32,619 bases of DNA from Gillisia sp. (GCA_024635715.1 JAGXIK010000127.1:1-32619), one strand, 5' to 3'. Shown: positions 488 through 26,149, counted from the stretch's first letter. Translations and numbers: made by a program. The notes: generated from the letters alone by a model not told the origin.

Positions 488-3400
488 ATGGATAAAACCT
501 TACCCACCAAACATCTTTCAGCAAGAGTCCCATGGCATGATAACAAATGGAATGGCACGATATGCTGTAATGTTCTGGATAATTCATTTTGCAGAATCCT
601 GCCAAAAATTGATAGTGAAAAAGATCATGTAAAAGAAGAAGATGGTGCTCACATTCAGGATAACAATTTACCACCCTGTATTACTGAGAAAGGGACTTTT
701 CTCTCACCTCATGAATATTCCCGGGAGCTTGAGCATGCTTGGGTAAATATCAATCCATTATTCAAGGAGTTTAAACCTGCTATTTATTATCATAAGCCCT
801 ATTCATTTAATGTGATTCCTTTTAAATGGATGCTAAAAGAAAAGGCAAATTTTGATAAACCGCATTTTTCAGATAAAGCACAGCAGTATGAACTTGGTTA
901 TGATGTAGACCTGGAGGAAAAAGTAGATCAAAAACTGGGATTTCCCGGTAATACCTGGGTGCAAAACGCGAAAAATCAAAAGGAACTTCTCGACACTTTT
1001 TTTGGTTGTCTTAAAAAGAGAAAGTCTTTGGTCTTTTTTTATGCGAAGCATACACCGCTGAGTGAAACAAATGAGAGGGTAATAGTTGGTGTGGCGAAAG
1101 TCAATAATGATTTTTCTGAAATTATACCTTACAAATATCCGGAAGGATATAATGGGCATAAAAGCTATGCATGGGATAGATGTGTTGAGCATACCTTAAA
1201 TGGATCTAAAAGCAGTGAAGGCTTTTTAATGCCTTATCATGATATAATTAAATATCAGAAAGATTCTGAAGCTAATCTGGAAATGCATGATTACGTTGCA
1301 GTAGCACCAGATTTTGAGCAGTTTTCTTATGCGTCAGAATTAGTGGAACATGATGTTGCCATAGATTCGTTACTGATTTTAGCCGAAAAACTTAGAAAAG
1401 CAGCACTATTATTACAAAAAGATTTTAAACAGGAACTGCAATGGATTGATCTGGAGGTATCAAAACTGTGGGATATGAGGGGAGCCTTTCCCGGTATGGG
1501 TGCTGTATTATCTGCTTTAAAGTTTAGTAATGGTAATAGTGTAGCCTGGGCAATTGAAAAAAGTATTCTGGAAAATTATGGAGATCTTTTAGCCGCAAAC
1601 CCCTGGGATGTATTAGAAAATCACTTCAGGGGGAAAGATGTTATTCCAAGACTTCAAGAATTAAGTGACAATACCGAAAAAATAATATTGGAGTCTATAC
1701 CTGCAGTCAAGAAAGATTTTTATAAAACGCTTAGCAGATTTTATCTAAATAATGATCAAGCTGAACATATTAATAAAAACTTTAAAGCTCTTGGCGGTGA
1801 AAGAGTCCTTTTAGAGAATCTTTATTTACTTTTTGAAAAAACCAGATTTGATGAAAATGGTTTAAGTTTTCGACAAATCGAAAAGGCGCTATTGCCCCCT
1901 GATAAAATCATCAATGCCTTTCCTCTACCTGATGATGTTAAATTGGATAGTAGATTAGATCCCAGACGAATAAGGGCATTATGTGTTTGGATTCTTGAGA
2001 TGGCATCAGATGAAGGACATTCTTTACTGCCTTTTGATGATTTATTAAACCGTTTACAGGAAAAAAATCTGGAGCAGGAGTTCCCCATTAATGAAGATAT
2101 TTTAAAAAATGTATTAGAAAATGAATTCTGTCAGTCGGAACTTCAGTTAATAGATAATGGGAATATTGTTTTCGTGAAACTTCAAAGATTAAGTAAAATA
2201 AAAGGTATCCTTCGGCAAAGACTTAATCTTGAGAGAATTATGTCAAGACCATTTAATATTAAAAAAGACTGGAACAGGCTTATTGAAGAAGGGATAAACA
2301 AATCTATTGTAGATACCGGAAAAGAATATTTACCAAAAAAACCTGATGATAAAGGCTATGAACAGGAAGTAAAAGCAAGAAATGAAAAAGCGGAAGCTTT
2401 GCGAGTTCTGACTAATTATAGATTTAGTGTTTTAATTGGCCCGGCAGGTTCAGGAAAAACCACCCTGCTTCAAACCTTTGAAAGGCTTCCTGAAATTCAG
2501 GAAGGAGGGCTTATTAAACTTGCGCCTACGGGAAAAGCAAGAGTAAAGCTGGGAGCGGACGGAAAAACAGTCGCGCAATTTCTTTATCCCCATAGATATG
2601 ATGGTAGGACTGGTAGATATCACCTTAATCCAAATGCACCTAAAAATGCAGGAGCCAAAAACTTAATTATAGATGAAGCTTCAATGCTTACTGAGGAGCA
2701 ATTGGCTGCAATCTTCGATTCCCTAGGTGTAGTTGATAGAATAATTCTTGTTGGGGATTATAGGCAGTTACCTCCTATAGGTACAGGCCGGCCCTTTGTA
2801 GATATTGTTAAAGCGATTAAACCACAAGAATTTCATGATCCCGAAATACTTGTTGGTCCCGGCTATGCCCAACTTCAACAAATAATGCGACAAGCTGAGG
2901 ATGGAGATAGGAGATTAGATGTTGAGCTAAGTAAATGTTTTGGAGATGAAATTGATAAGAATCATTTAGAGGTTTTTAATGAAGTAGCGAATAAAAAAAT
3001 AAATACCCGTCATATAAGATTGGAAAAATGGTATGAGAGTACTGATTTCAGGAAATTATTTAAAAGTGTTCTGGAGGAGGAACTTCATCTTGATCAAGAG
3101 GATTTAGTCAAATCTTTTAATAGAAAAATTGGAGCTAAAGATGTTGGTAATTACCAATATTTTAATAGTGGACATGCAGAAGCGGTTATCGAAGAATGGC
3201 AGATAATATCTCCAGTGAATGGGTACGGATATGGTGTAAAAGAAGTTAATAAAAATGTTCAAACAACCTATCGATATACAACCATAGAGTTAGCTCATAA
3301 CCTGAATGATGGTAGTAATTTCAAAAAAAGACAGATAGCTAAACCCAAAGGGAGTGATAATGTGGTTTATGGAGATAAAGTAATTAATCTAAATAACCAT

Positions 3401-4294
3401 AAATGGCAGGATTGGCAACATATTGTTCCACAAGATAAAAAGCAGGAAGCTTTAAATTATATAGCAAACGGGGAAATTGGCAGTATAGTAGGTCAGTTTA
3501 GGTCTTATAAAAGCAAACAATCTGGTGAACCGGCAATTGATATAGCATTTTCCACCCAAAAAGGTTATAGCTATCGTTTTTGGCCAAGCGACTTAAAGGA
3601 AGACGGAAAGTACAATTTTGAACTGGCCTATGCTATTACGGTTCATAAAAGCCAGGGTAGTGGATTTAAAACAGTCTTTTTTATCCTTCCGTCAAAAGGT
3701 TCCATTCTCAGTAAAGAGTTATTGTACACCGCTTTAACAAGGCAAGAAGAAAAAATCATCATCCTTCATCAGGGGGAATTTAGAGACTTTTTAAAACTTG
3801 CATCTACTGAAGCATCAGCTACAGCACGTCGTTTTACGGATCTGTTCCAATTTCCCGCTCTCAAAGAGATAAATCAGAAATTTTATGATGCAAATTATAT
3901 TAACATAAGTGAAAGGGGTGAGCCAATGTTAAGTAAAAATGAAGTTATTATTGCAAATTGTCTTAACAAATACAAGGATACTATTACCTATGCCTATGAG
4001 GATAAATTAAAGATTGAAACTTCTGGAAGAACCATAAAGCCAGATTTTACAGTTCAAAACATTGTAACGGGTAGAGAATTCTATTGGGAGCATTTAGGTA
4101 TGATGGCTAAAACCAGCTACAGGGAAAAATGGGAGAAAAAATTAAAAGGTTATTTGGATGATGGTTTTGTATTACATGATAGTGCCACTTGGGAGGATGA
4201 CAAAGTACTAATTGTAACTGAGGAGAATCCTAATGGCGGCATTAACTCTATGGCAATTAATGAATTAGTGCGTAAAGTAATTTTAGAAGAGTAA
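488..4294 (+). CDS. RecD-like SF1 DNA helicase with probable C-terminal PD-(D/E)XK nuclease-like module
   Basis: 1268-aa ORF. Walker A IGPAGSGKTTLL, Walker B LIIDEASML, motif III LVGDYRQLPPIG, late motifs AITVHKSQGSGFKTVFF and LLYTALTRQEEKIIIL. C-terminal KPDFTV...REFYWEHLGM pattern resembles a PD-(D/E)XK core. Confidence 0.88.
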   Translation: MDKTLPTKHLSARVPWHDNKWNGTICCNVLDNSFCRILPKIDSEKDHVKEEDGAHIQDNNLPPCITEKGTFLSPHEYSRELEHAWVNINPLFKEFKPAIYYHKPYSFNVIPFKWMLKEKANFDKPHFSDKAQQYELGYDVDLEEKVDQKLGFPGNTWVQNAKNQKELLDTFFGCLKKRKSLVFFYAKHTPLSETNERVIVGVAKVNNDFSEIIPYKYPEGYNGHKSYAWDRCVEHTLNGSKSSEGFLMPYHDIIKYQKDSEANLEMHDYVAVAPDFEQFSYASELVEHDVAIDSLLILAEKLRKAALLLQKDFKQELQWIDLEVSKLWDMRGAFPGMGAVLSALKFSNGNSVAWAIEKSILENYGDLLAANPWDVLENHFRGKDVIPRLQELSDNTEKIILESIPAVKKDFYKTLSRFYLNNDQAEHINKNFKALGGERVLLENLYLLFEKTRFDENGLSFRQIEKALLPPDKIINAFPLPDDVKLDSRLDPRRIRALCVWILEMASDEGHSLLPFDDLLNRLQEKNLEQEFPINEDILKNVLENEFCQSELQLIDNGNIVFVKLQRLSKIKGILRQRLNLERIMSRPFNIKKDWNRLIEEGINKSIVDTGKEYLPKKPDDKGYEQEVKARNEKAEALRVLTNYRFSVLIGPAGSGKTTLLQTFERLPEIQEGGLIKLAPTGKARVKLGADGKTVAQFLYPHRYDGRTGRYHLNPNAPKNAGAKNLIIDEASMLTEEQLAAIFDSLGVVDRIILVGDYRQLPPIGTGRPFVDIVKAIKPQEFHDPEILVGPGYAQLQQIMRQAEDGDRRLDVELSKCFGDEIDKNHLEVFNEVANKKINTRHIRLEKWYESTDFRKLFKSVLEEELHLDQEDLVKSFNRKIGAKDVGNYQYFNSGHAEAVIEEWQIISPVNGYGYGVKEVNKNVQTTYRYTTIELAHNLNDGSNFKKRQIAKPKGSDNVVYGDKVINLNNHKWQDWQHIVPQDKKQEALNYIANGEIGSIVGQFRSYKSKQSGEPAIDIAFSTQKGYSYRFWPSDLKEDGKYNFELAYAITVHKSQGSGFKTVFFILPSKGSILSKELLYTALTRQEEKIIILHQGEFRDFLKLASTEASATARRFTDLFQFPALKEINQKFYDANYINISERGEPMLSKNEVIIANCLNKYKDTITYAYEDKLKIETSGRTIKPDFTVQNIVTGREFYWEHLGMMAKTSYREKWEKKLKGYLDDGFVLHDSATWEDDKVLIVTEENPNGGINSMAINELVRKVILEE

Positions 4295-4717
4295 GCGAAG
4301 TAGGAGCTATGTGGATTACGCTTTAAGAGTTAATGTTGATACATTTTCCAATTCAGTATTACTAACTTTTCTTTAATATAGAACGATGAATAGCATCTCC
4401 CTGTAAATTATTACGGTAGCATCAAAATCACAAGAAGATTGGTCTATTAGAGTTTTTTAATTTTTATTTCCTGCCAGAACCTGGGTAAAAGTCCAAATAG
4501 ATTGTTTTCAATTTTTTATTATGATCTCATCTATCCTTTTTCGCTAATATTTTTACCATTGTTCAAATAATGTTCATTCCATAGTAAATGCTGTTAAGAT
4601 TTTTCCTCCAAAAAAATAGTTAAAATTTTACGATAAAAATTTGTTAAAACCCATAAATTGTATTAATTATACAGTTCCCTACTCTTCACCTAACACAAAC
4701 CTATATTGAATATAAAT

Positions 4718-6097
4718 ATGAATCTTTTTTCAACTAAATTTTCTTCGGAAAAGAGAGAGTCTTTACTAATATTTTTCCAACATATTACAAAAATTATTTT
4801 ATTCTGTTTTCTCTTACAGTCCTGTCAAAATGATACTAATAGAAATAAGGATTCAGAAAAGGATATTAACACAGGGAATACAATAGAAAACCAAACTAAA
4901 GCTAGAAACAGCTTACGAAGCATTAACTTCTATTTAGAAAATTCAGGAAGTATGGATCCTTACACCAAGGGAAGCACTGATTTCAATCGAACTCTAAACA
5001 CTTTGCTTAGGGATATTGATTTGTTACCATTGGATACGGTAAAATTATTTGCAGCGAACACCAAAATTTATCCGTTAAATCAAGATCTGGACGCTTTCAT
5101 AAACTATCTGTATAATAAAGGAATTCCTTCAGAAGGAGATACTAATAATAGCGACCTCCATCTCATATTTCAAAACTTACTTGATGGTCACGAAAACGGC
5201 AGTGTCTCGATTCTTGTTACAGATGCCATTTATTCTGTCGAAGGTACAAGAGAAAAACTGTTGGGAAATCTTGAACAAAAGGCTTTAAAAACAAGAAATT
5301 ATTTTTACAAAACTTTACAAGAAAAAGATTTTGCCACCCTCACGTTAAAAATGGATTCTGAATACAATGGATTTTATTATCCTGCGGTGGGCGGTAGAAT
5401 TGAAATAAACCAAAAGCGGCCTTATTATATATGGTTTTTCGGGGATGGTAAACTTCTGAAAGAATTTTCAGAGAAATTGAAGTTGTATAATTTACCGGGC
5501 TACCAAGATTTCGTTTACAGTGTTAAAAACAGTAACGAACCAATTGCATACTCCATTGTTGAACACAGTGTAGGTGACATTGGTAATTTTAAAAACACAA
5601 ATCGGGGATCATATCCTGTACATTCAATACAAGATGCAGAAGAAGCTGGTCGGGGAGAGAACAGGGGTCAATTTGGATTTGCTGTAGCCGTCGATTTTTC
5701 AGAAACTCCTCTTCCAAATAATCATCTTCTGGATATAAGTAATTATAACGTTACATCTGACGAATATGAACTATATAATATTAAGGCGATAGATTCAGGT
5801 TTGGATGATAAGGCAAAGGACTATTTGAAAATTGTTGAGAAGTCCTTAGAAGGAACAAATTTTACCCATTTACTCTTCTTGAAAACTGATAAAAAATTTC
5901 TCCAAACCTTTGAAGTTGAGCTTAAAAATGAAATTCCTAACTGGATTAATAAAACAGGCATTAACGATGACACAGAAATTGTAGGGGATACACAACATAC
6001 ATTCGGGTTTGATAAACTTATAGGTGGGATATTAAAAGCTTATGACGAGGTAAACAAAGGAGAGAATATATACTCTATTAGATTAACAGTTAAATAA
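4718..6097 (+). CDS. Lipoprotein with von Willebrand factor A-like domain
   Basis: ORF track starts at TTG 4706; ATG at 4718 is likelier. Signal/lipobox LFCFLLQSC-QND; MIDAS-like FYLENSGSMD followed by SVSILVTDAIYS. Confidence 0.7.
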   Translation: MNLFSTKFSSEKRESLLIFFQHITKIILFCFLLQSCQNDTNRNKDSEKDINTGNTIENQTKARNSLRSINFYLENSGSMDPYTKGSTDFNRTLNTLLRDIDLLPLDTVKLFAANTKIYPLNQDLDAFINYLYNKGIPSEGDTNNSDLHLIFQNLLDGHENGSVSILVTDAIYSVEGTREKLLGNLEQKALKTRNYFYKTLQEKDFATLTLKMDSEYNGFYYPAVGGRIEINQKRPYYIWFFGDGKLLKEFSEKLKLYNLPGYQDFVYSVKNSNEPIAYSIVEHSVGDIGNFKNTNRGSYPVHSIQDAEEAGRGENRGQFGFAVAVDFSETPLPNNHLLDISNYNVTSDEYELYNIKAIDSGLDDKAKDYLKIVEKSLEGTNFTHLLFLKTDKKFLQTFEVELKNEIPNWINKTGINDDTEIVGDTQHTFGFDKLIGGILKAYDEVNKGENIYSIRLTVK

Positions 6098-6107
6098 AAA
6101 TTGAATT

Positions 6108-6524
6108 ATGAATGATTGGTTCGCAAATCGTTTTGAAGATTTTCTGATTTACGATCAGCAGTTCTCAGATTATGTGCACAAAGCCCATGATTATCAAATG
6201 CTGGGAATTTTTTTAATAATAATACCTATACTAGTATTCTTCGTATTCTATAAGCCTATCGATCCACAACCTGTAAAATTGTGGAAATGGTTTGTTACCT
6301 TTTTAATTTCCGCTGTATTGCTGTTTCTTACGGCATATTACTGGTTGTATTCAAACAGTATGTATAATCCTATTCAAAATGAACAAATGAGTGATATGAG
6401 TGCTGTTTCCTTCACTCTCCAATTATCTTTCTGGGCTGTTGTATTTTCAATTATACCTGCGCTTCTGTTTAGTTGGATTTGGAGTAGGACCGTTAGTATT
6501 AACAATGCCAAAAACCCTTTTTAA
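6108..6524 (+). CDS. Small multi-pass membrane protein
   Basis: 138 aa with three hydrophobic stretches (MLGIFLIIIPILVFFVFY; WFVTFLISAVLLFLTAYYWL; LSFWAVVFSIIPALLFSWIW). 10 nt after the previous stop. Confidence 0.75.
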   Translation: MNDWFANRFEDFLIYDQQFSDYVHKAHDYQMLGIFLIIIPILVFFVFYKPIDPQPVKLWKWFVTFLISAVLLFLTAYYWLYSNSMYNPIQNEQMSDMSAVSFTLQLSFWAVVFSIIPALLFSWIWSRTVSINNAKNPF

Positions 6525-6527
6525 ATT

Positions 6528-8015
6528 ATGTCAAAATTATATGTATTTGGAATTGGCGGTACAGGTGCAAGGGTTATGAAATCCCTTACTTTTATGCTTG
6601 CTTCAGGAGTGAAATTATCTAACGATATTGACACCGTAGTTCCTATTTTGATTGATCCTGACTTTGGTAACGGAGATTTAACCAGGACTAAACAATTATT
6701 GGATCTCTATATGAAGATCAATAAAAAGGCACAGTATGAGGAAGGACTTTTCACCACAAAAATTAAAACGCTAAGTGAACTTTCTAATTCTGCTGGAAGT
6801 ATAGGGGATAAATTTAAAATGCTGGATGTTAGTGGTGCCCAGAATGAAAAGTTTCGTGAGTTTATAGGATATAGCTCTCTTTCTTCGGAAAATAAGGCTC
6901 TAATAAACCTCTTTTTCTCTGAAAACAATTTAAATGCGGATATGACGGTTGGCTTTAAAGGAAATCCAAATATTGGTAGTATTGTTTTAAATCAATTTAA
7001 AAATTCAAAAGAGTATAAAGTCTTTTTAAATTCCTTTGAACCGGATGATTCCATATTTATTGTAAGCTCCATATTTGGTGGAACCGGTGCTGCTGGCTTT
7101 CCACTCCTACTGCGCAATCTTAGAAAGATAGATCCTAATTTATCGAACTCCAAGAATGTTGCGAATTCAAAAATTGGAGCTCTTTCAATGATGCCTTATT
7201 TTAAAATTAATACACCAACAGATATTGCAAATCAAACGATAGATTCTTCAAGTTTTATGGGGAAGGCCAAAGCTGCTCTTTCTTTTTATTCTAATTCTAT
7301 ATTTGGGAATAATAATCAATTGAATTCTTTCTACACCCTGGGAGAAGATGTGGCAAATTTTTATGAGCATAATGATGGACAGGCTGCTCAAAAAAATGAT
7401 GCTCATTTTCTTGAATTTGCCGCAGCCTTGGCAATAGTTGATTTCACGTGGGATTTGCAAAATCTTGAAACCAAGGATGAAAAGGCTGTACAAACATCAT
7501 TCAAGGAATTTGGAATTCAGGCCGCTTTGAAGCGGCGGCTTAGTTTTAAAACCCTAGGAGGGAAGTCTAAGAAACAGGTTCTTACCCCAATGTCGAAATT
7601 GTATTTAATGTTTTTGTTTCATAAGCACCTTCATCAAAACAAAAAAGACTTCGAAAAATCCCCGTGGCATATACATCTTGAAGAGGTATATTCAAATGAT
7701 GGCTTGTACGATCAATATCTCAAGGATTTCGGGGAACATTTCTTAAGCTGGATCCAGGAAATGAAGAAAAACGATATAGCATTTAATCCCTTTAAATCCG
7801 AAGTTTCTTATCCTAAGCTTCTAAATTTTATTGAAGATTATGAAGTCAAGAAGCCCGGATTAAAGTTTTGGGACAATCCTGCAGACGGGGATAAATTCAA
7901 TAAGATTTTAAACTCCGAATATAAGACGAGCCAAAAAACAGATGATAAGGGATCAGACTTTTTGAAACTCTTTGATAGAGCTACAGAAATACAAGTTAAT
8001 TCAATTACAAAATAG
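6528..8015 (+). CDS. Tubulin/FtsZ-like GTPase-fold protein
   Basis: 495 aa. N-terminal glycine loop KLYVFGIGGTGARVMKSL and internal tubulin-signature-like IFIVSSIFGGTGAAGFPLLLRNLR (compare GGGTGxG). Confidence 0.72.
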   Translation: MSKLYVFGIGGTGARVMKSLTFMLASGVKLSNDIDTVVPILIDPDFGNGDLTRTKQLLDLYMKINKKAQYEEGLFTTKIKTLSELSNSAGSIGDKFKMLDVSGAQNEKFREFIGYSSLSSENKALINLFFSENNLNADMTVGFKGNPNIGSIVLNQFKNSKEYKVFLNSFEPDDSIFIVSSIFGGTGAAGFPLLLRNLRKIDPNLSNSKNVANSKIGALSMMPYFKINTPTDIANQTIDSSSFMGKAKAALSFYSNSIFGNNNQLNSFYTLGEDVANFYEHNDGQAAQKNDAHFLEFAAALAIVDFTWDLQNLETKDEKAVQTSFKEFGIQAALKRRLSFKTLGGKSKKQVLTPMSKLYLMFLFHKHLHQNKKDFEKSPWHIHLEEVYSNDGLYDQYLKDFGEHFLSWIQEMKKNDIAFNPFKSEVSYPKLLNFIEDYEVKKPGLKFWDNPADGDKFNKILNSEYKTSQKTDDKGSDFLKLFDRATEIQVNSITK

Positions 8016-8021
8016 ATTAAG

Positions 8022-11000
8022 ATGGCAAAGGTTTTTAGAATTTTTAATAATTCCGGATCAAATAAGACCGATTGGTTCAATTCCAGTCAAATTGGTGGAG
8101 GCGCCATTGATTCAATTACAGTCCAGGAAACTGATGGTAAAAAATTACCAACTTCTATTCCCAGCCCTTTTGCACAATTGGATCTGGTTAGAAATGCATT
8201 TAAAACTGTAAGCGATGAAGCGAGGATTGATGTAGATCTCGATTCCCGAAAAGACAGCCATAGGCTAGTTTCCAATGCATTAGATATAGGTCAAATCCTT
8301 TTTAATCTGGAAAAAAATTTAGACACTATTTCTATTGAAGTATGGAATAAAAAAGGAGATCTACAGAAACTGAAAGATTCTAACTCCTCAGAGTTAAAGC
8401 ATCTAGGGAAAACTCTGGAATTGTTCCTTACATCTTCAGATGCAAAATCCAACAATTTTGATAAGCTTTCAGATATATTTATTTTAAAATATAATAATAG
8501 GGTTATTGGTGGTACTTCTCCCAAAACCTTATTTTTTGCTTCCGCTGATTCTGTAAAGGTGGGTGTTGATATACATTGCGGGAATGATAAAATGTTGGAC
8601 AACCAACCTTTAGCATTATATAAAAGAGATCCAAAATATATCAAGGCATTATTCTATTTAAAACAACAAAGTAATTTCGCTTCACTTTTTCCAGAATTTG
8701 AGGAATATTTAGATCTTACTCTGTCACATATTTCTAGTTTTGATGTTGCTTTTGCCAATTCACTTTCCCAACTAAATGGTAGTAATGATTTTTTGGATCT
8801 TACCCTTCCAACTAATTCAGGTGTTTTTGTTGAGCCTCTACCAGGCGTCCGTATTCAGAAGCAAATTCCCAGAGATCCTGTTAATAGTGATTTTAAAATA
8901 CTTACACACAAAAATGTTGCTAGGCCACCATTGGTATTACCTATAGATACATACACCGATAGGGGGATATATACAGATGAGGAATGGAAATCCGATACGA
9001 AAGTACCGTTATTTGATAATAATCCCCTTGATGCGCGGACGCTTCCAAGAGTAAAGGATCATTATCCCTATCTAACCATTGGAGACCTCTTAACAGAAAA
9101 TATTTTTAAACTACCTTATAAAATAGATGAAGAGAAGTATTTGTGCATTCCTGGATATGAGAATTATCTGCTTCCACTTACAAAAGTCTTTTTCGACTAT
9201 TTTACTACAGAAGATATATTGAAAAACAAAAACTTTTTAAAGTTTCAATCCATTGCCGGGGATTCTATAGAAGTTACATTGAATATTCCCATTCAAAAAG
9301 GTAAATCAATTCCCTATACAAAAAGGTATAGTAAGACCTCTTCTCTGACCTTGAACCCTCACAAGGTGGGGAATATTTTGGATACGGATTTTACCTTAGG
9401 AATATATCCATTTGCAAAATCAAAGTTTGTACCTGTAGATTATGCAGTTGCTGTTGCCGAAAATGAAACTGCCCGGGCGATGGATAATTTCACCTTTTAT
9501 AAGAGTGAAGACAACACTTCCATAGTCATGAATGAAAGGGAAAGAATGAAAATGGAGGGGCTTCACAGTACCTATTACCTCACAGAATCACCTTTTGATT
9601 ATGTTGTTGTTGGAACGGAGGCTATAAAAAACATTTTAATTCCAAAGCTAAAGGAGCATAAAAATACAGGACTACATTACGAATTTGCAATAGACTTGGG
9701 TACCACTAATACACATATTGAATATAAAACCAGTAATAGTGAGCAGCCAAATCCATATAGTCTGGAAAAATCAAATTTTGGTTACTTAAGAAATAAGAAA
9801 GAGGAATTAAGAGGTCAGGCTAAAGTAAATTCAGAAGTTTGTGAAAAGCTTTTAAACCAGGAGGTTATTCCAAACGAACTGGGAAATGAGCGTTATAGTT
9901 TCCCGTTTAGATCAGTTCTTTTAGAAAACAAATCTATTAACTATGATAGGCCACATTATTTATTCAGCGATGTAAACATTGGTTTTGATTACGGGAAAGT
10001 GGATATTTCAGAGCATTTAGAAGAGGTCACTGATTTAAAGTGGCTTCATCTCAACGAAAACTTCAATAATGAAAAAATCAAAAAATTCATTCGGGAGCTC
10101 TTATTGTTATGTAAGAATAAGGTTTTAATGACCGACGGAAACGTGGGAAGAACTAAAATAACGTGGCTTTATCCCACAAGCATGACATATAATCAACGCA
10201 ATCTTTTTGAAGATATTTGGAAAGCTGAGTATCTAGATGTGTTTCGTGTGAGCGATCTTGCCAATCTTAGATCATTGCCAGAAAGCATTGCTCCATTTTA
10301 CTACTACACCGGCTTCACAGCATTGATGAATCATACACAACCAACTGCAACCATTGATGTAGGAGGAGGGACTTCAGACATTACAATTTTTGAACAGAAT
10401 AGACCAAAGCTTATATCATCTTTTAAATTTGCCGGGAATACAATTTTTGGAGATGGTTATTCCAACAGTATCACCCACAATGGATTTATAAAGCAGTTCA
10501 CTTCGGTAATTAAGAAGAAACTTATTGCGAATCAGGATAAAACAGCAACTGAAATTAAAATATTAGAAGAAATTTATGGACGGGGAAAATCCATAGACGT
10601 TTCAAATTATTTCTTTTCGTTGAAAGATAACCATCATTTAAATAAAGAGAATCTCACAATAGATTATTTTTCCCTTCTAAAGAAAGATCAGGAAACTAAG
10701 GTTGTATTTGTCATTTTCTATAGTGCTCTGATTTATCACCTGGCTCAACTGATGAAAGATTCGGGACTTGCTTTGCCACGTCATATTCTTTTTAGTGGAA
10801 CCGCTTCCAAATCAATTAATCTACTGGATTCCACCCTTACAAAAGTGAGTCGTTTATTTAATGAGATTTTTAATGAGGTTTATAATAAGGATGATGCTAA
10901 TATTGAGGTGAGAATTGATGAATCTCCTAAGATTATAACTGCACGTGGTGCTCTTAAAGCAGAGGAAATTTTAGAAATAGAAAACCTTATTCATACTCAG

Positions 11001-11339
11001 GTTGGAACTAACGGCACAAAATTCAATTCATCCTTGACTTATGATGAGATTGGAGAAAATGTCATTCAGGAAGTATTAGAAAATGTTTCAAACTTCTTTT
11101 CTCTTGTTGATAAAATTAATACAAAGCTGGATTTCAACAAATCTTTCGGTGTATCCAGTGCTTCTTACGAGGTATTTAAAGAAATTCGTAATGAGAACAT
11201 TCACGATTATCTACTGCAAGGTTTACATGATCGGAAAAAAGACGTTAATGACACTGCTTCCAGTTTAGAAGAAACCCTATTTTTCTATCCCTTTATAGGT
11301 TTATTAAACGAATTAGCTGCAAAGGTTGTAAATCAATAA
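8022..11339 (+). CDS. Large actin/Hsp70-like ATPase
   Basis: 1105 aa. Phosphate-1 motif FAIDLGTTNTHIEY, phosphate-2 motif ATIDVGGGTSDITIFE, adenosine-like motif HILFSGTASKSINLLD, all in the C-terminal half. About 540 aa of unassigned N-terminal region. Confidence 0.78.
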   Translation: MAKVFRIFNNSGSNKTDWFNSSQIGGGAIDSITVQETDGKKLPTSIPSPFAQLDLVRNAFKTVSDEARIDVDLDSRKDSHRLVSNALDIGQILFNLEKNLDTISIEVWNKKGDLQKLKDSNSSELKHLGKTLELFLTSSDAKSNNFDKLSDIFILKYNNRVIGGTSPKTLFFASADSVKVGVDIHCGNDKMLDNQPLALYKRDPKYIKALFYLKQQSNFASLFPEFEEYLDLTLSHISSFDVAFANSLSQLNGSNDFLDLTLPTNSGVFVEPLPGVRIQKQIPRDPVNSDFKILTHKNVARPPLVLPIDTYTDRGIYTDEEWKSDTKVPLFDNNPLDARTLPRVKDHYPYLTIGDLLTENIFKLPYKIDEEKYLCIPGYENYLLPLTKVFFDYFTTEDILKNKNFLKFQSIAGDSIEVTLNIPIQKGKSIPYTKRYSKTSSLTLNPHKVGNILDTDFTLGIYPFAKSKFVPVDYAVAVAENETARAMDNFTFYKSEDNTSIVMNERERMKMEGLHSTYYLTESPFDYVVVGTEAIKNILIPKLKEHKNTGLHYEFAIDLGTTNTHIEYKTSNSEQPNPYSLEKSNFGYLRNKKEELRGQAKVNSEVCEKLLNQEVIPNELGNERYSFPFRSVLLENKSINYDRPHYLFSDVNIGFDYGKVDISEHLEEVTDLKWLHLNENFNNEKIKKFIRELLLLCKNKVLMTDGNVGRTKITWLYPTSMTYNQRNLFEDIWKAEYLDVFRVSDLANLRSLPESIAPFYYYTGFTALMNHTQPTATIDVGGGTSDITIFEQNRPKLISSFKFAGNTIFGDGYSNSITHNGFIKQFTSVIKKKLIANQDKTATEIKILEEIYGRGKSIDVSNYFFSLKDNHHLNKENLTIDYFSLLKKDQETKVVFVIFYSALIYHLAQLMKDSGLALPRHILFSGTASKSINLLDSTLTKVSRLFNEIFNEVYNKDDANIEVRIDESPKIITARGALKAEEILEIENLIHTQVGTNGTKFNSSLTYDEIGENVIQEVLENVSNFFSLVDKINTKLDFNKSFGVSSASYEVFKEIRNENIHDYLLQGLHDRKKDVNDTASSLEETLFFYPFIGLLNELAAKVVNQ

Positions 11340-11352
11340 TTTGAGACCCCAA

Positions 11353-12123
11353 ATGAATGTATTTTTTACATCTGCCATAACAACAATTCCATTTTTATTT
11401 TTTCAAATAGACTCTATAAGTAGCACAGAAATCTGGATACATAGAGTTGGTCTTGCTGTCTGCTTTATCTTGATTGTATTACTTCTACTAGCAAAACAAG
11501 AAAAGCGAAAGAGGATAAAATCCTCTCAAAGCTATAATGCTGGAGAAAGCAATGATGGAAGTTTAGAATTAGAATTAAATGCTCTTAGACAAAGAGTGCA
11601 GGTTCTTGAAACAAATAGAAATTCTGGTCAATCCATAAAAAAAGAAATCTCTAAATCAAGTGGAAATAAAGTAAAACTTCAGAGCGAATCTGAACTCGGG
11701 GAAAACAATAATTCTAGTCAGAAACTAAACCCTAATGAAGTAGAAGAGGAAATTCCTTCACTCGAAATCGATCTTCCTCTTGATAAAAGGAAGAGGTTGG
11801 AAGAAGAGAAGAAGAGTGAAATATTTTATCTCAGTTCACCGGATAAGGATAAAGCTTTTTTTGCGCCCGAAGCCACATTTAGACCTAATGAGAAAACAAT
11901 GTATTCCCTTGATGGTGATTGCTTAAAGCTTTACGACAGGATCGATGAACAAACAATGCGGTTAGCACTTAATTCTCTTGATATTCTCGTAAAAAGAGTT
12001 TGCGAAGTCCAAAATGCCAAGGAGCCTCAGCATACAAAAATTGTGATGATAGAACCAGGAAAAGTAATAAGAGAGAGAGATGATTTTTTGGTAACGAGCA
12101 AAATGAAGGTAAAATTCGAATAG
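11353..12123 (+). CDS. Membrane-anchored protein with charged, probably coiled-coil linker
   Basis: ORF track starts at TTG 11341; ATG at 11353. Two N-terminal hydrophobic segments, then a K/E/S-rich linker and a soluble C-terminus. Confidence 0.65.
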   Translation: MNVFFTSAITTIPFLFFQIDSISSTEIWIHRVGLAVCFILIVLLLLAKQEKRKRIKSSQSYNAGESNDGSLELELNALRQRVQVLETNRNSGQSIKKEISKSSGNKVKLQSESELGENNNSSQKLNPNEVEEEIPSLEIDLPLDKRKRLEEEKKSEIFYLSSPDKDKAFFAPEATFRPNEKTMYSLDGDCLKLYDRIDEQTMRLALNSLDILVKRVCEVQNAKEPQHTKIVMIEPGKVIRERDDFLVTSKMKVKFE

Positions 12124-12124
12124 T

Positions 12125-13603
12125 ATGTTAGAAGTAGAATTAATTTTTCTGTCTATAATTGTTGTTTTTCAGATCTATTCAGTTATAAATATTTGGAATC
12201 GAATAAGTGTATTGGATTCAATTTTTATCGAAAGCTCAATTTGGGATAGCGATACAAAACAATTTTTATATTCAGGAAAAAATAAAGTCAAGGCCACAAT
12301 TATTGGAACTATTAATCAATATATCCTAAAGAACGAGGGTGGTGTAATTGATTTTCATATCATCAATGATATTGTTGAAAGAAATGTTGACACCATTGAT
12401 GAAGAAATTTCCAATAAACTTTCAACTCCTTTATATTTAGGCTTGGCCGGTACAATGATTGGAATCATAATCGGTCTATTTTATGTTGATTTCTCTTCAA
12501 GTGTAGATATTTCCCCTGGCTCAGGTGTGAATGGAGATAGTGATGACCTTCTAAAGATTTCACCTTTAATAGATGGAGTGAAATATGCAATGGGAGTAAG
12601 TGTACTGGGTCTTATTCTCACTACAGTACTGTCTGTATGGATTTATAAAAATGCTAAATCGAAAGTCAATCAAGGGAAGAATGAATTTCTTTCTCAGATT
12701 CAAACAGAGTTACTTCCTACTTTAATCAAATCTGGTGATGTGGCTATTCAGGAGCTTTCTAAAGAGTTGCGAGTTTTTTCGCAATCCACTCCGATTATGG
12801 TAAATAGTTTAAAAGAGAACACCGGAGTAGTTAAAGAAACCATTGAGAAGGAGATCAATCTTCTTAATCAAATAAAAGCTCTTGATGTAAAGAAACTATC
12901 TCAAAGTAATGTTGAAATATTTCATTCTTTATCAGGAATGATGGAATCCTTTCAAGCATTCCCGGAGTACTATGAAGAACTAAATCGATCTCTTGGAAAT
13001 ACAGTCGAACTAAATAAAAATCTTCAAAGCTTAGTAAATTCTTCCCAGAACGTAAATGCGATTCTTACTGATGTAAAAAAAATAATTGAAACCGGAAATT
13101 CAGCAGCTACATTTTTCAATCAGCATATCAAAAGTTTTGAAACATATTCCGATGCTGTAAATCATTCCATCTCAGAGACAAATCAATCCTTTGATCGGGC
13201 TATAGGACAACTTAAGGAAGCTGTAGGTGCGCAAATGGAAGTTTTTAATGTCGCAATAGCTGAATATGATTCAAAGCTGTCAAAATCCTTTGATCAGGCA
13301 ATTGAAAAATACAATGCTGCTTATGAGAATGCACTTCCAGATTTTAAAAATCTGGAACATCTTAAAAAGTTAGATACACTTCAAAAGTCAAATTCTACCT
13401 TGGAAGAGATTCAGACTATTTTAGCAAAGCATACAAAGGTTCTTGAAAACTTAAAACTCCAGCTCCCGGAAAACCTTAATTTAAGTATGAAACAGGAGAA
13501 AGGGATTTTCGAATATATAAGGGATGGAATAATAATTTTCACTTGTACTACTGTAACAACTGTTGCCATTTATATTGCAATTAATTACCAAGGAATATTT
13601 TGA
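12125..13603 (+). CDS. MotA/TolQ/ExbB-type (ZorA-like) stator subunit with long tail
   Basis: 492 aa. STPLYLGLAGTMIGIIIGLFYVDF and GVKYAMGVSVLGLILTTVLSVWIY resemble the MotA/ExbB TM core. Long helical tail and a C-terminal TM (GIIIFTCTTVTTVAIYIAI). Confidence 0.75.
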   Translation: MLEVELIFLSIIVVFQIYSVINIWNRISVLDSIFIESSIWDSDTKQFLYSGKNKVKATIIGTINQYILKNEGGVIDFHIINDIVERNVDTIDEEISNKLSTPLYLGLAGTMIGIIIGLFYVDFSSSVDISPGSGVNGDSDDLLKISPLIDGVKYAMGVSVLGLILTTVLSVWIYKNAKSKVNQGKNEFLSQIQTELLPTLIKSGDVAIQELSKELRVFSQSTPIMVNSLKENTGVVKETIEKEINLLNQIKALDVKKLSQSNVEIFHSLSGMMESFQAFPEYYEELNRSLGNTVELNKNLQSLVNSSQNVNAILTDVKKIIETGNSAATFFNQHIKSFETYSDAVNHSISETNQSFDRAIGQLKEAVGAQMEVFNVAIAEYDSKLSKSFDQAIEKYNAAYENALPDFKNLEHLKKLDTLQKSNSTLEEIQTILAKHTKVLENLKLQLPENLNLSMKQEKGIFEYIRDGIIIFTCTTVTTVAIYIAINYQGIF

Positions 13604-14259
13604 AAAAGAAAAGCTTCTTTTGGGTAGGATACGCAGATTTACTTACAAGTTTATTCTTTGTGATGCTAGTGCTGTTTGTTGTTACTTTCGCAATATTAAA
13701 GGAGAAAAACAATAGGCTTATTTCGCAAAATATCCAGTTGGAATTAATAAAGGAGGTAGAAAAGGCCCTGGGATCTCTTGATCATAAGTATTTCGAATAT
13801 GATCAGGTAAACAAAAGATATAAATTAAAACAGGATATTTCCTTTAGAAGTGGAAGCGATGATTTTAATGATTTATCTGAGGATGAAAAAGCGTATTTGG
13901 AGGAAGCAGGAAGGGAACTTTTTTCTACGATAAAGGACCTCATTAAGGAAAATCCTAATATTGAGTATTTACTTATTGTAGAAGGTAATACTCAAAGAGC
14001 AGTCTTTAATGGTCAATGGAATTATGAATCCATTCCCGATGTTGGTTATGAACTCAGTTATAGGCGAGCTCTTGCCCTAGTAAATTTTTGGAAGATAGAT
14101 AGAAATATTCCATTTAATGAAATTGAGGACAATTGCGAACTGCTTATTGCTGGTAGTGGCTATTTTGGTCAATCTCGACAAACAGAGGAGGAATTGAATA
14201 GGAGATTCTCTATACAGGTAACTTCCAAGGTGGGAAAATTTTTAAATAAGGGCCAATGA
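13600..14259 (+). CDS. MotB/OmpA-type (ZorB-like) stator subunit
   Basis: TTG start overlapping the previous stop. FFWVGYADLLTSLFFVMLVLFVVTFAIL (MotB-like TM with Asp) plus OmpA-like VEGNTQ...LSYRRALALVNFW...LLIAGSGYFG...NRRFSIQV. Confidence 0.82.
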   Translation: MKKKSFFWVGYADLLTSLFFVMLVLFVVTFAILKEKNNRLISQNIQLELIKEVEKALGSLDHKYFEYDQVNKRYKLKQDISFRSGSDDFNDLSEDEKAYLEEAGRELFSTIKDLIKENPNIEYLLIVEGNTQRAVFNGQWNYESIPDVGYELSYRRALALVNFWKIDRNIPFNEIEDNCELLIAGSGYFGQSRQTEEELNRRFSIQVTSKVGKFLNKGQ

Positions 14260-15020
14260 AATTTTTAATTGGATTGTCAATTATATGCATTCTTTTGACC
14301 TCCTGTGGTGGGAGAAATAAGGATAATATATTAGAACCAGGTGGGCCAGGACCAAAAGATGGAGGTGGAGAAATTTATGATAGTGATGGACCTAGCATAG
14401 AAGAGGAGGTGAACAAAGGGAGACCGCAAGAAGTGGAAGAAACAATTCCTAAAGTACCTCCTCCAAAAATGGTTTCAGAGCTTTTCCAGGACCTAAAAAA
14501 CGGTGTATTTGTAGTTAAAACAATTTTAGGTGAAGAGTTTTATACGCAGGGGAGTGGTTTTTTTATAGCAAAGGGGATTGGTATTACTAATTATCATGTT
14601 CTTCAGGGCAGTGACCAAGGTTTTATTGTTCTTTCTCCTGATAATGTTTTTCCCATTACCCGGATCTTATCAAGCAGTCCACCGGATAAACTTGATTATG
14701 TCATCTTTGAAACCGATGTGAAGGAAAATATATCATTATCTATTTCAAAGCGTAATCCCGAAATTGGAGAAGATGTTTTTGCAATTGGAACTCCCAAAGG
14801 GTTGAATAATTCATTAACAAAAGGTACGATTTCTGGAATTAGGAAAAATCAGAGAATACAAATAGATGCTACAATCGATCACGGTAGCTCCGGAGGTCCA
14901 TTGTTTAACCTTCAAGGGGAAGTTATAGGTATAACCACCTCAGGTGTAGGAACTGGTTCTGAATTAAATTTTGCTGTCAACATCCAAGCTTTACCTTATG
15001 AAAGATATATTAGAAATTAA
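14256..15020 (+). CDS. Trypsin-like (S1/HtrA-type) serine protease lipoprotein
   Basis: Lipobox ICILLTSC-GG. Catalytic-type motifs GIGITNYHVL (His), KLDYVIFE (Asp) and IDHGSSGGPLFNLQGEVIGITTSG (Ser). Confidence 0.87.
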   Translation: MKFLIGLSIICILLTSCGGRNKDNILEPGGPGPKDGGGEIYDSDGPSIEEEVNKGRPQEVEETIPKVPPPKMVSELFQDLKNGVFVVKTILGEEFYTQGSGFFIAKGIGITNYHVLQGSDQGFIVLSPDNVFPITRILSSSPPDKLDYVIFETDVKENISLSISKRNPEIGEDVFAIGTPKGLNNSLTKGTISGIRKNQRIQIDATIDHGSSGGPLFNLQGEVIGITTSGVGTGSELNFAVNIQALPYERYIRN

Positions 15021-15026
15021 TTTTAT

Positions 15027-15599
15027 ATGATAAGTGTAAAACCATTATTTCTAGCTCTTCTCATTAGCTTAACTACTTGTGAAAGAACGGTCGATAGAAA
15101 TATTGAATCTCATCCAATAATGGATGAAAAAATTAATGAAATTGAGCCGAAGAGTCACAATTCTGAAGATCAACCTTCAGGCAAGATATTTCTGAAAGGG
15201 CAAATTACTCGTATTGTAGATGGCGATACGGGCGAATTTCTTTACAATGGTGAACTTCCCTTGATGATTCGACTTCAGCACATCGATGCCCCGGAAAAAC
15301 GCGGTAAGCAACCATATGGAAATAAAGCTAAACAAATATTATCAGATCTGTGCTTTGGTCAAAAGGTAACAGTAATAACCGATGGAGAATTTGATATGGG
15401 TGGTCGTCTTATCGGGGAAATCATTAATGAAGAAAATATAAATGTCAATAAAGAAATGGTCCGTCTTGGATATGCCTGGCATTTTAAAAAATATTCTGAA
15501 GATTTGAGTTACGATATATTGGAAAAAGAAGCTCGTAATAATAGACGAGGACTTTGGCAGGAGCCATCACCCGTGGCTCCCTGGAACTATAGGAGGTAA
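15027..15599 (+). CDS. Thermonuclease/SNase-like nuclease, predicted lipoprotein
   Basis: Lipobox-like LISLTTC-ER. SNase motifs ITRIVDGDTGEF, MIRLQHIDAPEKR, GNKAKQILSDL, GRLIGEI, VRLGYAWHFKKYS, EARNNRRGLW. Confidence 0.88.
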   Translation: MISVKPLFLALLISLTTCERTVDRNIESHPIMDEKINEIEPKSHNSEDQPSGKIFLKGQITRIVDGDTGEFLYNGELPLMIRLQHIDAPEKRGKQPYGNKAKQILSDLCFGQKVTVITDGEFDMGGRLIGEIINEENINVNKEMVRLGYAWHFKKYSEDLSYDILEKEARNNRRGLWQEPSPVAPWNYRR

Positions 15600-16720: not shown

Positions 16721-16724
16721 TAAA

Positions 16725-16828
16725 ATCATTACGAATCTCTTGAATGAGATAGCAACCAGCGATAACAAGCAACGGTGCTAAATTAATGAGCCTTAATCAA
16801 GGAAATAAAATGTTACTTCCACTGACTT
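16725..16828 (+). repeat. Copy 1 of a duplicated ~104-bp leader-like element
   Basis: Near-identical to 17199..17303, including an exactly shared core GAGATAGCAACCAGCGATAACAAGCA and GGTGCTAAATTAATGAGCCTTAATCAAGGAAATAAAATGTTAC. ATCTC(N6)GAGAT and CCTT(aatc)AAGG hairpins. Confidence 0.85.
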
Positions 16829-17174: not shown

Positions 17175-17198
17175 TCCTTTATTAGTTTAATAACCTTC

Positions 17199-17303
17199 AT
17201 CATTAGGAATCTCTTAAGTGAGATAGCAACCAGCGATAACAAGCACCGGTGCTAAATTAATGAGCCTTAATCAAGGAAATAAAATGTTACCTTCCATTGA
17301 CTT
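17199..17303 (+). repeat. Copy 2 of the duplicated ~104-bp leader-like element
   Basis: See copy 1. It lies about 40 nt upstream of the 622-aa ORF start. Confidence 0.85.
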
Positions 17304-20434: not shown

Positions 20435-20484
20435 AAAACTTTAGAGGGCAAAGGTTAAAACAAAGTTTCCTTTTGCTTTAATAA

Positions 20485-20594
20485 TACATCAAGAATTTCC
20501 TTTCTAAGGAAATGCCAACCGAGAGAAGGTCTCCACGGTGGTTTGGAATGTGGGCGTTTTGCCAAAATAAACCTTATTGAAATTCCTTGATGTA
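20485..20594. repeat. 110-bp inverted-repeat element with internal palindromes
   Basis: Ends TACATCAAGAATTTC (20485-20499) and GAAATTCCTTGATGTA (20579-20594) are reverse complements with one bulged base. Inside are CCACGGTGG and GGCgttttGCC. Confidence 0.7.
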
Positions 20595-23535: not shown

Positions 23536-24072
23536 TCAATCATATTTCCAAACAAATCCATAATGGGTCTTTTTATATCCTAAACATACCTGTGTTACCG
23601 CATTGGGTCTGAAGCCATGTTTTGATACTTCTTTAGCGTAGCCGTAAGTACGAACAAGCTCTCCATTAAGAGTATATTGATAAACCTTTCGTTTGATCTT
23701 TTCTCGGCCCTTCATAAATGCCCCATTGTGCGCTAAGTTTTTAGCATGAGTTGTCCATTCAAGATTTTCAGCTTTATTGTTTGCCCGGTCTTCATCTAAA
23801 TGATTTACCACGTTGAGGTTATGGGGATTATCAACGAAGTGTTCCGCCACCAAACGATGAACGCTATAGGTAGTTTTAACTCTATCTTTGGTAAGTCCTA
23901 CATTTACGTAACCCAGATGCTTGTTCGGTTTGCAGCTAAATAGCAGTTCTTTCTGATATCGTATAGTGCCATTTAAACGAGTTATGTACCTGCCAAGTCG
24001 CTTAACCTGGCCCATATTACTTGTTTCGTAAAGACCTTCATAATTCTTTATTTGTTTCCATTCTTGTTCCAT
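23536..24072 (-). CDS. NUMOD4/HNH-type homing-like endonuclease
   Basis: EWKQIKNYEGLYETSNMGQVKRLGR (NUMOD4), VHRLVAEHFVDNPHNLNVVNHLDEDRANNKAENLEWTTHAKNLAHN (HNH), VYQYTLNGELVRTYGYAKEVSK (NUMOD1-like). Confidence 0.88.
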   Translation of the reverse strand: MEQEWKQIKNYEGLYETSNMGQVKRLGRYITRLNGTIRYQKELLFSCKPNKHLGYVNVGLTKDRVKTTYSVHRLVAEHFVDNPHNLNVVNHLDEDRANNKAENLEWTTHAKNLAHNGAFMKGREKIKRKVYQYTLNGELVRTYGYAKEVSKHGFRPNAVTQVCLGYKKTHYGFVWKYD

Positions 24073-25612: not shown

Positions 25613-26149
25613 TTATAGATTAAGGTATATGTTCTTTATCTCTTCAGCTCTTATTCCAAGGTACTTTCTGGTTACTGTTATACTGGTGTGGTTGAATATA
25701 TCAGATAAGTACATCAGAGCATTCTCAGATTGTCCATTGTTGTTGTAAACTCGCCTGCCAAAAGTTTTTCTGAGTGTATGGGAGCTTACTCCATCATCAT
25801 TGAAATACTGTTTCAGGAGCCTATTAACGTGCTTATTAGAGTACACAGTGCTCTTCTGGCTTCTGAATGCGTAAAATGAATCCTGGTGCTCTTTCCCAAT
25901 AAAGTAAGACATAGCATGTTTAATGTTATCATTGATTTCAATTACTCTATCCTTCCCGGTCTTGCCCTCATTGATAGTAATTGTATTTCTTCTAAGATGA
26001 CCATAGGTGAGGGTTAAAAGATCTGATACTCTCAGCCCCATATTAATCCCTACTATTATCATCAATCCTGCTGTTGGATTCTTATCAGTCCTGATTAGTC
26101 TTAATCCTTTTGCCTGGGCTTTGTCAAAATCTAAATGTGTGGTAGTCAT
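25613..26149 (-). CDS. Tyrosine recombinase, catalytic domain only
   Basis: 178 aa: INMGLRVSDLLTL (Arg I), GKTGKDRVIEI (Lys), SSHTLRKTFGRR (HxxR), FNHTSITVTRKYLGI (His and Tyr). No core-binding N-terminal domain. Confidence 0.85.
   Translation of the reverse strand: MTTTHLDFDKAQAKGLRLIRTDKNPTAGLMIIVGINMGLRVSDLLTLTYGHLRRNTITINEGKTGKDRVIEINDNIKHAMSYFIGKEHQDSFYAFRSQKSTVYSNKHVNRLLKQYFNDDGVSSHTLRKTFGRRVYNNNGQSENALMYLSDIFNHTSITVTRKYLGIRAEEIKNIYLNL

Follow-up and report, generated by a model that had tools for sequence, protein, structure and literature searches.

Why would a bacterium place a tubulin-like protein, an actin-like ATPase, a motor-type stator pair, a protease and a nuclease in a single run of genes? 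The question is raised by a 32,619-nucleotide stretch of DNA from Gillisia sp. (GCA_024635715.1 JAGXIK010000127.1:1-32619; hereafter, the window), in which nine consecutive plus-strand open reading frames (ORFs) occupy positions 4718-15599. Our favoured answer, which we hold with about as much confidence as doubt, is that the operon encodes an envelope-spanning, ion-driven conflict (defence) machine armed in the periplasm, and its target is probably phages. A narrower and more tentative proposal is that this is an undescribed kind of defence, in which an ion-driven stator coupled to tubulin-like and actin-like NTPases fires interchangeable periplasmic protease and nuclease modules and stops phage DNA before it reaches the cytoplasm. 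The genes, separated in order by 10, 3, 6, 1, 1, -4, -4, and 6 nt, are as follows.

4718..6097, plus strand: VWA-like lipoprotein, with a lipobox Cys and a motif resembling a metal ion-dependent adhesion site (MIDAS); alternative TTG start at 4706
6108..6524, plus strand: TM3, a small protein with three predicted transmembrane (TM) helices and homologues at relatives' loci
6528..8015, plus strand: TUB, a divergent tubulin/FtsZ-superfamily protein, nearest to Pfam Tubulin_2/FtsZl1, recognized by T1 and T4 GTP-loop motifs
8022..11339, plus strand: ACT, an actin/Hsp70-superfamily ATPase, recognized by phosphate-1, phosphate-2, and adenosine-type motifs
11341..12123, plus strand: CC, with an N-terminal TM helix and a polar/coiled-coil region, recognized by homologues at relatives' loci
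12125..13603, plus strand: ZorA/MotA-like stator subunit, with a tail of approximately 270 aa, enriched in coiled-coil matches, followed by a C-terminal TM helix
13600..14259, plus strand: ZorB/MotB-like stator subunit, with an OmpA-like domain and an invariant TM Asp13
14256..15020, plus strand: TRY, a trypsin-like (HtrA-like) lipoprotein protease, in exchangeable slot 1
15027..15599, plus strand: SNase, a staphylococcal-nuclease-like lipoprotein, in exchangeable slot 2

Gene models are ORF based, and family assignments come from hidden Markov models built for this analysis. The window belongs to a metagenome-assembled genome (MAG) that is 65% complete, and MAG contigs may be misbinned.

One question is whether the genes belong together. 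Genome contigs were scanned with an ACT alignment, which returned at least 234 relatives, and 80 loci were kept; because selection was based on similarity to ACT or TUB, the sample is biased towards the kin of these two proteins. The order VWA-TM-TUB-ACT-CC was kept at approximately 95 of 100 loci, and ZorA-ZorB came next at approximately 60 of 100. Core gene pairs were directly adjacent, ordered, and on one strand at 93-95 of 96-99 loci, with median gaps of 4 to 18 nt; CC was adjacent to ZorA at 63/64 loci and ZorA to ZorB at 50/57. Homologues of TM3 and CC were present at 85/88 and 87/88 loci, respectively, and pairwise protein distances covaried (ACT-TUB, r=0.90; ACT-ZorA, r=0.84; ACT-ZorB, r=0.67). 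ZorAB was absent from approximately 40% of the loci that keep TUB/ACT, which argues that the motor was added to, or lost from, an older core. In recognizable form, the cluster is spread across Bacteroidota. Other classes of the phylum have divergent TUB-ACT pairs whose neighbours are comparable in size (L142 and L143). In the cyanobacteria Gloeothece and Picosynechococcus, plasmids have VWA-, TM-, TUB-, and ACT-like genes that follow this order, with the VWA-like gene on the opposite strand in Gloeothece and a CC-like match in Picosynechococcus. Matches in Gracilibacteria and Acetatifactor (L039 and L065) may be contamination. The sequence-only reading that preceded this work took the nine plus-strand genes for one transcription unit, and the tight spacing (-4 to +10 nt) and conserved order agree; the gene set on which it had staked itself is indeed found together in other genomes. 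What does not stand is a single fixed nine-gene system, since the combination resolves into a five-gene core, then ZorAB, then exchangeable enzymes.

Some relatives depart from this layout. L016 and L017 lack ZorAB and have a YidD-like gene upstream and two other genes behind ACT (541 and 273 aa in L016), and the Prevotella-type loci L066-L098 also lack ZorAB and have zinc-ribbon TM proteins after CC. A tetratricopeptide repeat (TPR) histidine kinase and a NarL-type response regulator lie upstream on the same strand at L014, L016, L019, and L046, and nearby on the opposite strand at L054 and L057. A NACHT-domain protein lies near a Zor-bearing locus (L015:434-4213).

The identity of the cytoskeleton-like core rests on conserved motifs. 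The T1 (FGIGGTG) and T4 (SSIFGGTGAAG) loops of TUB were nearly or fully invariant among 60 aligned homologues, of which 55 matched Pfam Tubulin and 53 matched Tubulin_2 at E<=0.01. The window protein itself falls below both curated cut-offs (24.7 of 27 bits for Tubulin_2, PF13809; 16.9 of 33 for Tubulin), and profile-profile comparison with FtsZ from the window's relatives gave a weak match limited to the T1 loop (2%). A homologue from cyanobacteria (E=3e-28; 30.7% identity across the first 306 residues) scores 40.8 bits against the 27 that Tubulin_2 requires, and we take TUB to represent a divergent FtsZl1 lineage. ACT is also below Pfam curated cut-offs; its phosphate-1 (DxGTTN), phosphate-2 (DxGGGTTD), and SG..SK adenosine-type motifs are conserved in 53 homologues. 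Its best Protein Data Bank profile match was MreB (E=2.4e-4), and hhalign against MreB from the window's relatives gave E=2e-5 with the alignment restricted to the phosphate-2 region; no fold was assigned to the N-terminal region of approximately 550 aa. Neither TUB nor ACT has a signal peptide, and both are additional to the FtsZ and MreB that the window's genome encodes. The lipobox Cys of the VWA-like protein was invariant in 36/36 homologues. Its MIDAS-like motif is ENSxSM, against DGSGSM in a cyanobacterial homologue (E=1e-13), and the window protein had no Pfam match in the family scan.

The stator pair is most clearly recognized through ZorB, which matches PADLOC ZorB1 (E=6.5e-12), as do all 29 family members. 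Against solved chains, the ZorB profile was closest to the type I Zorya stator 8VVN (E=1.3e-15, over positions 4-204), followed by another ZorB (8.6e-8) and then flagellar MotB (5e-6); the match to Pfam OmpA reached E=0.015 only. Asp13 of the TM helix is invariant (29/29) and, judged by its position, appears equivalent in place to D24/D21, the conserved ZorB residues of Zorya (PMC11890865). ZorA gave a weak PADLOC ZorA1 match (E=2.3e-4), and its tail of approximately 270 aa matches helical/coiled-coil chains ahead of the C-terminal TM helix. No flagellar genes were found among the annotated neighbours of the operon.

The same ZorAB subfamily occurs in other company. It lies beside DarT and a NADAR-like partner on a Parabacteroides plasmid (L148) and a provirus contig (L158), the two partners being 70% identical, and beside DarT and an ADP-ribosylglycohydrolase on a genome contig (L149). 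In this recurring DarT plus ZorA-ZorB unit (L148:6499-10621, L158:4497-8681, and L149:5520-11599), DarT is fused to another N-terminal part and the partner is NADAR-like/DUF6939 or an ADP-ribosylglycohydrolase; the unit resembles a Zorya-like system, as yet unnamed, built on DarT.

The exported enzymes vary between loci. In the family scan, the window TRY matched Pfam Trypsin_2 (E=3.7e-21) and the nuclease matched the SNase domain (E=7.5e-23), and both have a lipobox and intact catalytic motifs. An exported protease stood directly behind ZorB (<=60 nt) at 34/55 loci, and these 34 proteases fall into three unrelated classes: 16 are retropepsin-like (DTGA; Pfam gag-asp_proteas), 14 trypsin-like, and 4 transglutaminase-like. 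At some loci, slot 2 holds one of three unrelated nuclease folds, namely SNase, Exo_endo_phos (DNase I-like), or a DNA/RNA non-specific endonuclease. Catalytic motifs were intact in most members (trypsin-like, 17/18; retropepsin-like, 25/25; transglutaminase-like, 4/4; SNase, 7/8; Exo_endo_phos, 4/4); for the third nuclease, the motif pattern, which was too strict, was met by 1/3, and both members scanned match Pfam Endonuclease_NS. Lipoboxes were present in most slot enzymes. Mapped on the TUB+ACT tree, the 43 loci require a minimum of 10 changes of protease class, below the values obtained by shuffling (mean 16.5, minimum 11), indicating that class is inherited with frequent swaps; L063 and L067 are closely related and have proteases of different classes. 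TUB and ACT are 98% identical between L011 and L019, their CC proteins 56%, and their Exo_endo_phos proteins 54%, with unrelated flanks; the operon is therefore mosaic, and the break falls between ACT and CC. The parts named by the sequence-only reading, namely FtsZ/tubulin-like GGTG motifs, actin/Hsp70 phosphate motifs, a Zor/Mot-like stator pair, and lipobox-bearing protease and nuclease proteins, were thus recovered in each case.

Outside one family, the distribution of the system is patchy. A protein search of genomes from the family to which the window belongs gave matches in 9/199 (one of the nine weak), and with the window's own genome counted, ACT was carried by 1/16 genomes of the genus and 14/375 of the class. 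At L011 (genome G068), the operon adjoins tRNA-Met and an integrase, and a tRNA-derived repeat of 14 bp lies 33 kb away. Judged by eye rather than by family scan, the downstream genes read as a type I restriction set together with a DUF262 protein. Plasmid spread is rare (2 ACT matches). A phage origin was considered and rejected: the phage records searched held no relatives, and one viral contig matched.

How might such parts work together? From their sequences, the VWA lipoprotein is placed outside, TM3, CC, ZorA, and ZorB are placed in the inner membrane, and the protease and nuclease are exported lipoproteins. ZorA5B2 would form a putative peptidoglycan-anchored, ion-driven stator that senses or transmits envelope disturbance, such as phage DNA entry. 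CC and TM3 would couple the stator to putative nucleotide-dependent TUB/ACT assemblies beneath the membrane, activation would alter the VWA protein and release periplasmic protease activity, the protease could then process the machine, the nuclease, or invader proteins, and the nuclease would cut DNA crossing the periplasm. Complex formation, sensing, direction of signalling, periplasmic action, and defence are all steps that we infer. The sequence-only reading had likewise proposed a membrane motor or sensor with two cytoskeleton-like NTPases and extracytoplasmic outputs; this idea keeps its gene identities and conservation and loses its fixed set of nine.

We favour defence because gene order and tight spacing are conserved over approximately 100 loci and core distances covary; because the enzymes in the slots have unrelated folds and carry export signals and intact catalytic motifs; and because protease class changes repeatedly and operons such as L011 and L019 are mosaic. 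The patchy distribution, the tRNA-Met/integrase island with its apparent type I restriction-modification set, and the proximity of ZorB to Zorya ZorB among solved chains, in a ZorAB subfamily also found with DarT, point the same way.

Several observations weigh against this reading. PADLOC models matched at E<=1e-30 were more numerous in the flanks of enzyme-bearing loci than in control flanks (93 versus 15), which fits defence, but these counts are of models, not proteins, with many models per protein, and serve as supporting evidence only. The seven-gene form is near-universal within one family (94/120 genomes), unlike an accessory defence system. Of eight loci read in this family, seven were the seven-gene form and had no recognized enzyme; the eighth, which carries a trypsin-like gene, is an additional copy in a genome where the usual form is present as well. 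The two enzymes here seem to lie outside the cytoplasm, the compartment in which Zorya nucleases act. An isolated ZorA-ZorB pair of this subfamily also occurs in one family in varied gene surroundings (L151-L156), and because the subfamily is found with DarT or alone, ZorAB is a portable module whose presence alone is no proof of defence. Two forms can thus be told apart, one resident, the other accessory and armed. Whether or not it comes with the motor, the cytoskeletal core is the older part and may have a general envelope role, and the enzymes would be interchangeable warheads of the accessory copies.

The near-universal form without recognized enzymes also fits the alternative that survives best, a membrane-remodelling or envelope-maintenance machine in which ZorAB powers or anchors TUB/ACT filaments beneath the membrane that bend or repair the envelope, and the enzymes clean up. 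We regard this as possible yet doubtful. The core is ancient, with homologues in cyanobacteria, TPR histidine kinases and NarL-type regulators adjoin some loci, and membrane remodelling was predicted for VWA/FtsZl1/OmpA operons in an earlier study (Makarova and Koonin, 2010; PMC2875224). This alternative leaves unexplained the patchy spread, the location in an island, the fast exchange of unrelated protease and nuclease folds, and the use of a nuclease that is exported. Antagonism, predation, or scavenging of DNA or nutrients, with motor and cytoskeleton driving surface display of the enzymes against neighbours or polymers, is improbable. Bacteroidota often expose lipoproteins at the surface, and both enzymes are exported lipoproteins, but the operon contains no secretion, immunity, or transporter genes and many loci have the same core without enzymes. 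A further Zorya type, with TUB/ACT and enzymes in place of ZorC/D/E, would account for the ZorB profile matches and is still harder to credit: none of the nine proteins matched ZorC, ZorD, or ZorE in PADLOC (ZorF and ZorG were not looked for separately), so by this effector test the system is not Zorya, and a motor missing from so many loci that keep TUB/ACT is an add-on. Chance neighbourhood of unrelated genes, for which no supporting point was found, is refuted by the order conserved in approximately 100 loci and has next to no likelihood.

The surroundings of the operon were also surveyed. Upstream, window positions 488-4294 encode a 1268-aa RecD-like helicase that matches the candidate defence family PDC-S68 over its full length (PADLOC, 1300 bits); it was rejected as a member of the system, given a 424-nt gap and no homologue at the other loci compared. 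No match to the Bacteroidota promoter consensus was found near the operon, and one lies elsewhere, fewer than expected by chance. Downstream, phage-integrase-family and NUMOD4/HNH proteins (25613-26149 and 23536-24072) suggest that mobile DNA lies close to the operon. Each of three SAM-I/IV riboswitch matches that exceed the Rfam gathering score (16721-16818, 17195-17292, and 20481-20579) precedes a gene of unknown function (98, 622, and 140 aa, respectively).

If the defence reading is correct, a single conserved operon ties tubulin-like and actin-like NTPases to an ion-driven stator, and the idea that defence is sited in the periplasm, not the cytoplasm, can be put directly to the test. The long-standing FtsZl1 puzzle would gain a concrete, mutable setting, and three protease classes and three nuclease folds interchanging behind one motor would amount to a natural experiment.

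How does the operon compare with known systems? The sequence-only reading recognized no named system. That stands in so far as the operon matches no PADLOC system and no description of this gene set was found in the literature searched, outside which lie most subscription journals and preprints; it is qualified by two partial precedents. The first is the FtsZl1 (Pfam Tubulin_2)-VWA-OmpA operons with predicted membrane remodelling (PMC2875224), whose gene lists, including Bacteroides caccae, may contain relatives. Both have a tubulin-superfamily protein with VWA and OmpA-domain proteins and a membrane association. Most FtsZl1 proteins there have a C-terminal coiled coil and helical domain (approximately 1000 aa), whereas TUB is approximately 495 aa without it; Tubulin_2 proteins above cut-off in the same phylum have frames of 1138-1215 aa. 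The window operon also differs in having an actin-like ATPase, ZorAB, and exported enzymes, and no GTPase or kinase. The second precedent is the GTPase-centric tubulin/HSP70/vWA conflict systems (Kaur et al., 2020; PMC7159879), which share tubulin, HSP70, and vWA themes, membrane association, and, in some, trypsin. There, tubulin and HSP70 are non-overlapping themes within the GAP1-N2 group and MotA is unmentioned; here, no GTPase family scored above curated cut-off in the nine genes, and GAP1 was not recognized, with no dedicated GAP1 model checked. The DarT-NADAR and DarT-ARH units share the ZorAB subfamily but have a DarT toxin module and no VWA, TUB, or ACT. Zorya types I-III (PMC11890865) share adjacent ZorA and ZorB, the conserved ZorB Asp, the OmpA-like periplasmic domain, and possibly the long ZorA tail; the present system differs in that its nuclease is an exported lipoprotein and its cytoskeletal core also occurs without the motor.

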